Both the position numbers and the translations under genes were made by a program. DNA of 63,411 nucleotides from Clostridia bacterium (lineage in GTDB: Bacteria; Bacillota; Clostridia; Oscillospirales; Acutalibacteraceae), in contig JAFSGH010000075.1 of assembly GCA_017440965.1 (NCBI GenBank), positions 1 through 63,411 of the forward strand. The letters run 5' to 3'. Of this stretch, positions 13,073-16,009 are shown one piece after another. The notes below the pieces were generated by a model. That model was not told where the DNA came from. It ran no database searches and saw only the letters and a program-made list of their open reading frames with translations. The stretch's first letter is position 1, and every line of letters starts with the position of its first letter.

Positions 13073-13867
13073 TTATCCTGCATAGAGGATTCCGACTATT
13101 CTGTTTCTTATTGATGACGGAAAGACCTTACATAAAACTGCAAGAAGCTTATAAGTAAAGCCTATCGCATAAAGCGGCTTTACCTTTTGCCGCAAAGAGA
13201 TCTCTGCTATATACTCCCCTGCTTTTACGGGACTCATTCCCTTTATCTCATCCTGCTCCATACCCGTTACGCTTTTTGAAATACGGCCGTTATACACATC
13301 GTCTCCCGCAAAGGATTTCTGCCTTGCCTCGGTAAACTCGGTTTTGATATCACCGGGCTGAATTGCCGTGACTGTAATACCGTAGGGAGCAACCTCGTTT
13401 CCCAGCGCCTGAGTATAGGATTCTATTGCCGCCTTTGAGGCGGAATAATATGTCTGAAAAGGAATATGGGCAACTGCAGCAACAGAGCTGATATTAACTA
13501 TCCTTCCGCCGCCTTTATTTCTCATAAACGGAATTGCTGCCTTATTGACATTTACCGTGCCGAAAAAATTTACATCAAACTGCCTTTTTGCATCTGAAAG
13601 CTCGGTAAACTCAACCGCACCGGAAATTCCGAAGCCTGCACAATTTATTAAAATATCTATCCTGCCCGCCTCTGCTATAATTCTTTCTATTGCAGAATTT
13701 ACCGATGCTTCATCAGTTACATCACAGCATATATGAGTTATACCCTGAATACTTATATCCCGCCTTGAAAGATCATAAACGGTACAGCCTTTATTTATCA
13801 GAGCCTCGGCGGTGCATCTGCCGATTCCCGAATTTCCTCCCGTTACGACGGCAATCTTTCTGTCCAT
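13073..13867 (-). CDS. Short-chain dehydrogenase/reductase
   Basis: 264-residue classical SDR: cofactor motif TGGNSGIG near residue 9, NCAGFGISG, the catalytic Ser in VNISSVAAVA and the YSASK motif (Tyr and Lys), then PGDIKTEF. It is an NAD(P)-dependent oxidoreductase of unknown substrate. It starts 3 nt after the trpB stop with only a weak ribosome site, so it depends on translation of trpB and shares the tryptophan-controlled transcript. What an SDR does in that unit cannot be read from the sequence. Confidence 0.85.
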   Translation of the reverse strand: MDRKIAVVTGGNSGIGRCTAEALINKGCTVYDLSRRDISIQGITHICCDVTDEASVNSAIERIIAEAGRIDILINCAGFGISGAVEFTELSDAKRQFDVNFFGTVNVNKAAIPFMRNKGGGRIVNISSVAAVAHIPFQTYYSASKAAIESYTQALGNEVAPYGITVTAIQPGDIKTEFTEARQKSFAGDDVYNGRISKSVTGMEQDEIKGMSPVKAGEYIAEISLRQKVKPLYAIGFTYKLLAVLCKVFPSSIRNRIVGILYAG

Positions 13868-13869
13868 AA

Positions 13870-15090
13870 TTATCTGATACCGAAGTTTTCAAGCACATAA
13901 TCCATATCCTTATCGCCTCTACCGGAGAGATTGATAAGCACGGAGCCGTGCTCCATAGTCTTTGCAAGCTTCATTCCGTATGCTACTGCGTGTGAGCTTT
14001 CTATTGCAGGGATAATGCCTTCAAGTCTTGAAAGCTTAAAGAATGCATCGATCGACTCTTCATCGTCAATAACATCGTATTTAACTCTGCCGATCTCCTG
14101 TAAAAATGCGTGCTCGGGACCTGATGAAGGATAATCAAGACCGCTTGCTACGGAATATACGGGAGCGGGATCACCGTTTTCATCCTTGAGCATAATGCTG
14201 TTAAAGCCGTGCATAATGCCTTCGGTACCATACTTAAGGGATGCGGCGTGATCACCGAGCTTTTCACCCTTGCCGAGAGGCTCAATGCCGTAAATATCAA
14301 CGGGATCGTTAAGGAAGCCTGAGAAAAGTCCCGCAGCATTGGAGCCGCCGCCTACACAGGCAACAACAGCACTGGGAAGATGACCTGTCATATCAATAAA
14401 CTGCTCTCTTGCTTCAATACCTATAACACTCTGAAAATCTCTTACCATCATCGGGAAGGGATGAGGTCCGAGAACGGAGCCGATACAGTAGATCGCTGTT
14501 TCGTATTCCTTGCTGTATGCATCAAAAGCAGCGTCAACAGCCTCTTTAAGAGTCTGAAGACCGTGAGTTACCTCAATAACGTTTGCACCGAGAATTTTCA
14601 TTCTTGCTACATTGGGAGCCTGCTTCTTTATATCAACGGCACCCATATAGATATCACATTCAAGTCCGAAATATGCTGCAGCTGTGGCAAGAGCAACACC
14701 GTGCTGACCTGCACCTGTTTCTGCGACAACCTTTTTCTTACCCATATACTTTGCAAGAAGAGCCTCGCCCATACAGTGGTTAAGCTTATGTGCACCTGAA
14801 TGATTAAGATCCTCTCTCTTTGCATAAAGCTGAACCTTACCGCCCAGCATATCAGAAAGTCTTTCAAGATGCGTAACGGGAGTAGGTCTGCCCTGGAACT
14901 CTTTTCTTATTCTTCTGAGCTCAGCTATAAATTTTCTTGACTGACAGATGGAAAAATAAGCCTGTGTTATCTCATCCATAGCCTTTACAAGCTTCTCCTC
15001 TACGAAAACACCGCCGTATTTTCCGAAATAACCGTTCACATCGGGATAATTGTTAAAATAAGTATCAAAATTAACGCCATTGACTATCAT
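13870..15090 (-). CDS. trpB: Stand-alone tryptophan synthase beta chain
   Basis: A 406-residue TrpB of usual length. The PLP lysine lies in [20 protein letters not shown], the catalytic glutamate in [11 protein letters not shown], the phosphate loop is GGGSNAAG, and [18 protein letters not shown] and ESSHAVAYG segments follow. The enzyme condenses indole with L-serine to give tryptophan. No trpA or other trp gene occurs in the window, so here it probably works on free indole rather than indole-glycerol phosphate. It is the second gene of the T-box-controlled unit, 12 nt after the ECF S component, with AAGGAGAA before the ATG. Some residues differ from canonical TrpB (HKLN for HKTN), which may reflect the missing TrpA partner. 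Confidence 0.92.
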
Positions 15091-15102
15091 AATAAATTCT
15101 CC

Positions 15103-15603
15103 TTAAAAAGTAATTTTTGTCATTTTAATAATTTTTACAAGTGTAACACCAAGTATGATTCCGACAGCACCCTGAAATAAATTCATAGGGATATTTACCG
15201 CCGAAGCTGCAAATCCGTATAAAAAACCTTCAAACAGATAATAACCGCCTGTCATGACCGTTTCGGCAATAATTCCGGATATTATACCTGAAGGAAGTTC
15301 CTTCAACCGTCTGCTTATCAATTTATGCATCATATATGCTGTAAGTGCGGTAAAGCCTTTTATAACAAATGTTGCAGGCATATATACCGCATAGCCTGAG
15401 ATCAGATCTGCAAGTGCACTTCCGATACCTGCGGTAAGAAATCCGTATCCGGGAGAAAGCAGCCAGCCTGCAAGAAGCACGATACAGTCACCGAGATTTA
15501 TATATCCCTTGAAAGGCGACGGTATCCTGATAATTAAGGTTGCAACACATACAAGCGCTGTCAGAAGAGCGGCTGTTACAAGCCTTTTTGTTGATTTTCT
15601 CAT
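15103..15603 (-). CDS. ECF-transporter S component, putative tryptophan or indole-compound uptake
   Basis: A 166-residue membrane protein with about five hydrophobic segments and the signatures of ECF-transporter substrate-binding subunits (ECF_trnsprt/DUF1393-like): INLGDCIVLLAGWLLSPGYGF, GIGSALADLISGY, and PATFVIKGFTALTAYMMHK. S components capture a small molecule and share a common EcfA-A'-T energising module encoded elsewhere; none is in this window. Because it lies directly behind a tryptophan T-box and before trpB, tryptophan or a precursor is the best substrate guess. That is an inference from regulation only. Confidence 0.75.
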   Translation of the reverse strand: MRKSTKRLVTAALLTALVCVATLIIRIPSPFKGYINLGDCIVLLAGWLLSPGYGFLTAGIGSALADLISGYAVYMPATFVIKGFTALTAYMMHKLISRRLKELPSGIISGIIAETVMTGGYYLFEGFLYGFAASAVNIPMNLFQGAVGIILGVTLVKIIKMTKITF

Positions 15604-15647
15604 AGTTTCGCCTTCTTATTTTATTCTTATTTTATTCTGATTTACTT

Positions 15648-15677
15648 TCAGCCTCGCCATCGTTTGGTTAATAACAT
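15648..15677 (-). CDS. Possible 9-codon leader peptide containing Trp
   Basis: Between the T-box terminator and the S-component gene is CGGAGG, 6 nt, ATG and a nine-codon frame reading MLLTKRWRG then TGA, ending 44 nt before the S-component start. The ribosome site is stronger than that of the S-component itself. A single Trp codon near its end could make downstream translation depend on charged tRNA-Trp. It may also be chance. Confidence 0.35.
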   Translation of the reverse strand: MLLTKRWRG

Positions 15678-15699
15678 AAAATTGCCTCCGAAAAACAAA

Positions 15700-15975
15700 A
15701 AGTCCCCGACAGAAAAAACTGTCAAGGACGAATAAAAAACTTATCCGCGGTGCCACCCTGATTCACGGTTACCGTGCACTTTAAGGATACTGACATATCC
15801 CCGAGAACTTACGCATCTCTTTCGCGTTGCAGTATACTCTGTATTTTCACATTTGACTGCACCCTCCGCGGCCCATTTGACAATCGGTTGCTAACCTGAC
15901 TTTCAGCATCGCAGGCTCTCTGTATAGTCCTATATTGCCTTTATTCCCGCATCAACGGTTTAAAAATTAAATTTA
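15700..15975 (-). promoter_or_regulatory. Tryptophan T-box riboswitch
   Basis: On the minus strand the 15-nt T-box AGGGTGGCACCGCGG lies at 15745-15759. Stem I carries AGAGAG and the distal GATGCTGAAAG loop. Its base pairs GCGG/CCGC below and GGCAAT/ATTGTC above, enclosing a specifier loop AAATGGG whose codon is UGG (15873-15875), i.e. tryptophan, followed by the expected purine. Downstream is a terminator hairpin of 11 bp (15702-15712 / 15719-15729, G-U pairs included) with a T run, which competes with the T-box antiterminator. Uncharged tRNA-Trp should switch on the S component, trpB and SDR. Confidence 0.93.
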
Positions 15976-15980
15976 CAGTT

Positions 15981-16009
15981 ATTTTATCACCCTGACTTTT
16001 TTTTGTCAA
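15981..16009 (-). promoter_or_regulatory. Promoter of the tryptophan T-box unit
   Basis: Minus strand TTGACA (16004-16009), 17-nt spacer, TAAAAT (15981-15986), just upstream of the T-box stem I. Confidence 0.8.

Follow-up and report, generated by a model that had tools for sequence, protein, structure and literature searches.

We describe here a tryptophan-type T-box riboswitch on the minus strand of a 63,411-nucleotide stretch of DNA from a Clostridia bacterium of the Acutalibacteraceae (contig JAFSGH010000075.1 of assembly GCA_017440965.1; the whole stretch is referred to as the window, and its source as the own genome). The T-box is followed by genes for the S component of an energy-coupling factor (ECF) transporter, a stand-alone tryptophan synthase beta subunit (TrpB), and a short-chain dehydrogenase/reductase (SDR). 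By its sequence the element should sense tRNA-Trp, and in our judgement the arrangement is probably a salvage operon called up by tryptophan starvation, in which the T-box would drive indole salvage by TrpB, the S component would import a vitamin B6 vitamer, and a short leader peptide would serve as a second readout of tRNA-Trp.

The tryptophan T-box and the stand-alone trpB

A covariance scan (cmscan) of positions 15,600-16,130 matched RF00230 on the minus strand at 15,964-15,721 over the whole model (positions 1-219), with a score of 86.5 bits and an E-value of 1.9e-19. This falls short of the Rfam gathering score of 93 for RF00230, so that the window shows no T-box in an Rfam scan at default settings, and the absence that such a scan would wrongly imply was overturned only when matches were taken by E-value. 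Twelve T-boxes were found in the own genome, five of which, including that of the window, scored under 93 bits. The RF00230 search at E up to 0.1 also gave matches in 7 of 14 control genomes, only two of them above the cut-off, and weak T-box matches consequently mean little; the window T-box is far stronger than those weak matches. Folding of the leader RNA hardly beat that of shuffled sequences (z of -1.17, with 12 of 100 shuffles equally good), and folding energy was not used as evidence.

The tryptophan specificity of the element is read from two short motifs. The first, UGG at 15,875-15,873, consists of the three bases that lie six bases ahead of the conserved GAG, and this offset was calibrated on other T-boxes of the own genome, where it yielded the cognate codon in seven of seven cases: CUC for leuS, UUC for pheS, AAC for asnS, UAC for tyrS, AUC for ileS, ACC for thrS, and CUC for a leuA-like gene (genes named by eye, the leuA-like gene also by a below-cut-off family match). 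The remaining four of the eleven other T-boxes were left out of the calibration, namely that of alaS (GAG not found by the script), that of paaK (spacer unclear), and two ahead of acyl-CoA ligase-like genes whose amino acid was not independently known. The second motif is the bulge that pairs with the tRNA 3' end (15,752-15,755), which reads UGGC in the window; among the other eleven, nine read UGGU and thrS reads UGGA, while alaS could not be clearly read. UGGC is likewise reported for the tryptophan T-box of Streptococcus suis trpX (PMC9382623). Given UGG at the calibrated offset together with the UGGC bulge, the window element should therefore sense tRNA-Trp, and its specifier agrees with the role of the trpB gene behind it. 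A preliminary description, made from the window's letters alone, had proposed a complete minus-strand T-box with a UGG specifier and had named a covariance search as the check; the whole-model match and the seven-T-box calibration bear the proposal out.

Three further T-boxes of the own genome deserve mention in their own right. Two of them (L005, G000:C33:9598-9844; L009, G000:C14:30476-30710) stand ahead of genes resembling those for acyl-CoA synthetases; the locus end truncates these genes, and their best NCBIfam match is MbcS at 116-119 bits (cut-off 850). At the calibrated position these T-boxes carry GUA (Val) and AUC (Ile), respectively, which would fit a route in which branched short-chain acids are activated with CoA and reductively carboxylated to give the amino acid that each T-box reads. 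The third (L004, G000:C73:25987-26223) precedes a gene similar to those for phenylacetate-CoA ligases, with a TIGR02155 score of 542 bits that falls below the cut-off (646); the specifier of this T-box is ambiguous, reading UUC if the spacer is five bases, and would suit phenylalanine made from phenylacetate.

TrpB proteins of 59 related genomes (own genome included) were sorted at E 1e-60 into an orphan type, at least 70% identical to that of the window with fragments included, and a canonical type, 49-53% identical; the former occurred in 19 genomes and the latter in 9. We examined 20 stretches around trpB or S genes of relatives, and 17 orphan-type trpB loci, including the window, had intact upstream DNA (L076, which starts inside the leader, and G035, in which trpB is cut, were left out). 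Fifteen of the 17 have a T-box ahead of trpB, all 15 with UGG in specifier context; the loci of G007 and G006 have none. An S gene lies between T-box and trpB in only two of the 17, those of the window and G018, and the idea that S belongs to a conserved tryptophan operon was dropped on this count. The other 13 loci with a T-box have trpB without an intervening S. As far as this comparison of loci can tell, the tryptophan T-box thus belongs to trpB rather than to S.

The window trpB gene (13,870..15,090, minus strand) encodes a protein that matches TIGR00263 at 516 bits (cut-off 392). Lys102 and Glu124, which we take to be the lysine that holds pyridoxal 5'-phosphate (PLP) and the catalytic glutamate, are kept in all 19 orphan-type and all 9 canonical TrpB sequences aligned. 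No match to trpA (PF00290) or trpC (PF00218) was obtained in the own genome or in 25 others of the genus (trpE, trpD, trpF, and tnaA were not searched), whereas the trpA search gave matches in all 14 control genomes. Weighing against too firm a reading, the own genome is 86% complete, and so its lack of genes is no proof of absence. All 9 genomes with canonical TrpB have a TrpA above its cut-off, against none of the 19 with orphan-type TrpB; the orphan type therefore probably works without TrpA, with indole from outside as its natural substrate. These data hold up the preliminary description where it had claimed a trpB without trpA, and give good support to the indole salvage that it had assigned to TrpB, since the tryptophan T-box goes with stand-alone trpB in relatives. 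The host, a gut bacterium, seems unable to make tryptophan de novo.

The orphan-type TrpB of the window shares 90-97% identity with those of G013, G015, G018, G029, G055, and G056, and some of these genomes are placed in other families of the order. Compared with the G018 proteins, those of the window are 96% identical for TrpB and only 63% for S, even though the two genomes share a genus. Transfer between lineages and misbinned contigs are both possible explanations for this discrepancy.

A leader peptide between terminator and first gene

The T-box is followed by a terminator (15,691..15,729, minus strand), recognized in the sequence as a hairpin with a T run and forming an 11-pair hairpin in the minimum-energy fold. 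Between it and the S gene lies a short open reading frame (ORF) encoding MLLTKRWRG and a stop (15,648..15,677), preceded by the ribosome site CGGAGG (15,690-15,685), which the preliminary description had overlooked. Leader peptides were defined as short ORFs from ATG in which Arg-Trp is followed by Arg, Cys, or a stop; Arg was required, but the codon CGA was not. By this rule, a leader peptide is present in 19 of 22 trpB or S leaders inspected; the exceptions are G007 and G006, where the T-box is absent too, and G051. Pairwise comparison of the 16 LLTKRW-type copies gives 292 synonymous versus 15 non-synonymous changes in the L, L, T, and K codons, and the CGA TGG pair (15,657..15,662 in the window) is invariant. 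CGA precedes the Trp codon in all 19 leader peptides, while it accounts for 2.5% of Arg codons in the long ORFs of the window (n=638; AGA, 61%) and for 0-16% in stretches from 12 relatives. This codon conservation and the ribosome sites suggest that the peptide is translated.

A search of the 59 genomes with the pattern ACNRARCGATGGYG returned 46 matches, versus 9 for the reversed pattern. Among the 30 ACNRARCGATGGYG matches made into loci, 14 were leader peptides, of which 13 have a T-box within reach (the L134 locus is cut), and 16 lay in other reading frames, so the bare pattern was rejected as a marker. It did yield two additional leader peptides with a T-box, in G035 and G008, although their CGA TGG is not independent evidence, having been found by that very pattern. 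In G008 (L121, G008:C216, 1177-1602), a tryptophan T-box of 74 bits is followed by a leader peptide beginning MFILTKRWRYPS, the stop of which overlaps the start of a gene for a TrpX-like binding protein (NF041285, 221 bits, below the cut-off of 390). In another locus (L136, 3136-3940), an additional ORF, probably a DUF559 match, separates the terminator of the T-box from the leader peptide, and the peptide still stands directly before S.

It is possible that the peptide merely provides a start for translational coupling and has no part in sensing, as might be expected where the leader stop falls within one base of, or beyond, the next start (L080 and L083) or overlaps it (L121). The other 17 of the 19 leader stops, however, end 28-62 bases ahead of the next start (44 bases before the S start in the window), coupling needs no unvarying rare CGA before the Trp codon, and a comparable ORF was not seen at the other 11 T-boxes of the own genome, 10 of which sit 37-69 bases ahead of their gene, the eleventh being the 170-base leuS leader, which was read by eye. 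We therefore consider coupling alone a fairly unlikely account. Two observations nonetheless count against a sensing role: in G051 no leader peptide accompanies the T-box, and a conserved hairpin masking the downstream ribosome site, the mechanism looked for in 19 leaders, was not seen, which also favors mere coupling.

Work by Chen and Yanofsky (2003, 2004) reportedly describes the Bacillus subtilis rtpA (anti-TRAP) leader as a tryptophan T-box followed by a leader peptide with Trp codons, presumably three in a row, with a stop next to the ribosome site of the gene. The order found here is the same, that is, a tryptophan T-box, a terminator, a short Trp-codon peptide, and then the gene, and it suggests by analogy that tRNA-Trp may be sensed in tandem by T-box and leader peptide. 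It differs in that the gene under control is trpB (with or without S) or the TrpX-like gene rather than rtpA, that there is one Trp codon rather than a run of several, preceded by the invariant CGA, and that the stop mostly lies at the distance from the next start given above. If sensing does take place, a ribosome held at the rare CGA or at UGG of the LLTKRW-core peptide, translated between terminator and first gene, would provide a second readout of tRNA-Trp charging.

The substrate of the S component

The S gene (15,103..15,603, minus strand) encodes a PdxU/HmpT-like protein that matches PF07155 at 125 bits (cut-off 26.7). No tryptophan-transport family was among its matches, which comprised only PF07155 and PF12822 in Pfam at E up to 0.1 and four NCBIfam families at E up to 0.01. 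The closest solved structure is that of HmpT, with which the fold is shared; HmpT is reported to bind pyridoxamine, favored by mass spectrometry, and to have been named originally for hydroxymethylpyrimidine (PMC4860826). Among six pocket residues of HmpT, Tyr120, Asn140, and Gln143 are kept in the S alignment, and Glu41, His84, and Gln87 are replaced by Asp39, Lys82, and Thr85. The likeness to PdxU and PdxU2/HmpT (PMC9997740 and PMC4860826) extends over the Pfam family, the closest structure, those pocket positions that match, and a link to PdxR in relatives, with the three replaced residues and the tryptophan T-box setting the S protein of the window apart.

For a wider view, a scan of named genomes was used to collect S relatives of 50-67% identity, and the best 80 of 572 confirmed stretches were analyzed, with 41 of 43 codirectional neighbors ahead of S scanned (the two dropped were a frame within the T-box of L161 and an L208 frame) and 35 of 37 neighbors behind it (a frame of 60 residues and a very long one were dropped). 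S is divergent from a PdxR-type regulator gene in 24 of the 80, and in another 10 it has a neighboring gene for a PLP enzyme that is not TrpB; 14 of the 80 loci are linked to PLP enzymes. Genes near S relatives include PdxR, metY, cysK, glyA, and thiC. S proteins from tryptophan operons mostly retain the pocket residues, and three of six match all 64 positions conserved in PdxR-context S proteins (the short fragment L179 was dropped from residue counts). Taken together, family, closest fold, neighbors, regulator linkage, and pocket residues make it more likely that S carries a vitamin B6 vitamer than tryptophan. EcfT is present in the own genome (EcfA and EcfA' were not searched), and S together with the shared EcfAA'T module would import the precursor from which the PLP cofactor of TrpB is made.

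Two side observations can be added: a DUF436 gene (PF04260) lies near S in 13 of the 80 loci (L137, L143-L145, L147-L149, L168, L171, L182, L184, L207, and L209), which makes DUF436 a candidate for a function connected with B6, and two PdxR-type genes of genomes G013 and G022 carry one in-frame stop each (G013:C40:119708-120763 and G022:C123:3008-4066). Among the 59 genomes, TIGR04002 over its cut-off and S (at least 44% identity over most of its length) each occur in 13 and never together; this pattern is suggestive, but it is not corrected for descent and was given no weight.

The preliminary description had proposed instead that S takes up tryptophan or an indole compound and that it might define a new ECF substrate; together with TrpB, such uptake would restore tryptophan by two routes. 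Control by a tryptophan T-box favors this, since T-box-driven transporters usually carry the amino acid that is sensed, and the TrpX-like gene behind the same T-box and leader peptide in G008 indicates that tryptophan can be the cargo of a transporter controlled in this way. Relative to PdxR-context S proteins, moreover, the S proteins of the window and G018 carry M85T and M85V, respectively, at the position of HmpT Gln87, and their pocket may on that account have shifted. On the other hand, the PdxR, metY, cysK, glyA, and thiC genes beside near S relatives have no tryptophan link, the nearest fold binds pyridoxamine, half of the tryptophan-context S proteins keep every PdxR-conserved position, most loci have T-box and trpB with no S between them and two lack the T-box as well, and indole passes membranes unaided. 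We consider tryptophan or indole import unlikely, and the new-substrate proposal is not the one that the evidence favors. Of the outcomes that the preliminary description had named as contrary to it, a T-box for another amino acid did not appear; of the other, full tryptophan biosynthesis with an S that binds a vitamin, the first half is at odds with the missing trpA and trpC, while the second now looks likely.

A third possibility is that S imports another small heteroaromatic compound, such as hydroxymethylpyrimidine or some precursor of thiamine, and that its entry into the operon had nothing to do with tryptophan salvage. The first naming of HmpT would fit (PMC4860826), as would thiC, which lies directly ahead of S in three of the 80 loci (L139, L140, and L170) and hints at a broader or different substrate in those three copies, and the TMP-TENI (ThiE-type) genes, four members in all, among the distant genes of S loci. 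The more frequent linkage to PdxR-type genes and PLP enzymes, and the preference of HmpT for pyridoxamine by mass spectrometry, argue against it, and we regard it as quite improbable. Riboflavin, suggested by the name of the PF07155 model, was not followed further, as the NCBIfam riboflavin model scores 23 bits against a cut-off of 99.

In addition to the pocket changes, the usual behavior of T-box-driven transporters, and the thiC loci, several points weigh against B6 import. The Pfam model of the family does carry the riboflavin name, no B6-linked neighbor was seen for more than half of the 80 S relatives, a search of the own genome for PdxR at E 1e-60 gave none, and weak PdxS matches were obtained in two members of the genus (G014 and G021, 20-21 bits; 28.9 summed in G021, cut-off 27).

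Four more loci with S between T-box and trpB were found among the 80 (L135, L136, L155, and L161); a further T-box, matched ahead of S in L194 by a regular expression, proved false, as it lies inside a long coding frame, by eye that of a lysyl-tRNA synthetase. On a tree of 92 S proteins, in which L179 was kept, tryptophan context requires five changes (bootstrap range 4-5), at least two of them forced by well-supported branches, and S was probably recruited into the operon, or exchanged within it, more than once, as judged from the tree. Less favorably for recruitment, tryptophan context clusters on the tree hardly better than shuffled labels do (58 of 500 shuffles were as low), losses or exchanges could underlie the changes just as gains could, and the tree is not resolved around the window.

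Operon layout and biological meaning

The order of S, trpB, and SDR behind the T-box, all on the minus strand, was correctly given in the preliminary description, coordinates included. Upstream, a promoter-like pair read by eye (TTGACA-17-TAAAAT, 15,981..16,009, minus strand) precedes the T-box, and the G018 copy is preceded by a similar one (TTGACA-17-TATTAT). The SDR gene (13,073..13,867, minus strand; PF00106, 170 bits) starts 2 bases after trpB, yet no SDR homologue was found by search in the 20 stretches around trpB or S of relatives, so that it is probably cotranscribed in the window but stands outside the conserved unit. The 80 S loci gave only two weak matches, of 27-33% identity, and the SDR was accordingly dropped as part of a conserved operon.

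Among described systems, the S. suis trpXYZ T-box shares the UGG specifier, the UGGC sequence, and control of tryptophan supply genes, but has a solute-binding ABC transporter in place of trpB, and the term "leader peptide" does not occur in the text available for that study (PMC9382623). Recovery of tryptophan from outside indole by tryptophan synthase would be shared with Bifidobacterium (PMC11085991) and Chlamydia; here, in contrast, no trpA was found and control is by a tryptophan T-box. Among the titles and starts of abstracts in the matches listed, we recognized no description of a T-box-controlled pair of S component and trpB, or of this leader peptide, which is weak evidence of absence given that many subscription journals lie outside; PdxU and trpB co-occur there in one publication, on CodY.

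The salvage operon that we consider probable would work as follows. Uncharged tRNA-Trp would have its anticodon read by UGG and its CCA end by UGGC, the terminator would then not form, and the operon would be transcribed; TrpB would join indole released by other gut microbes to serine to give tryptophan, with S helping to supply its cofactor and the leader peptide reporting on tRNA-Trp a second time. The more general proposal, that a two-step tRNA-Trp sensor, consisting of a T-box and then a CGA-Trp leader peptide, controls tryptophan salvage in gut Clostridia, with a B6 import subunit recruited more than once, is more tentative, and we hold it at slightly less than an even call. Such a sensor would govern trpB or a TrpX-like transporter, and would represent a second lineage for tandem transcriptional and translational sensing of tRNA-Trp. 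If the proposal is true, one amino acid starvation switch turns on a PLP enzyme and, with it, import of the precursor for its cofactor. The codon of the T-box would then not name the substrate of the transporter, and the common annotation rule would mislead here, because the transporter feeds the cofactor of the enzyme rather than the amino acid. It would also point to a set of gut bacteria that rely on their neighbors for indole, and probably for B6 too, and that regulate for that reliance.

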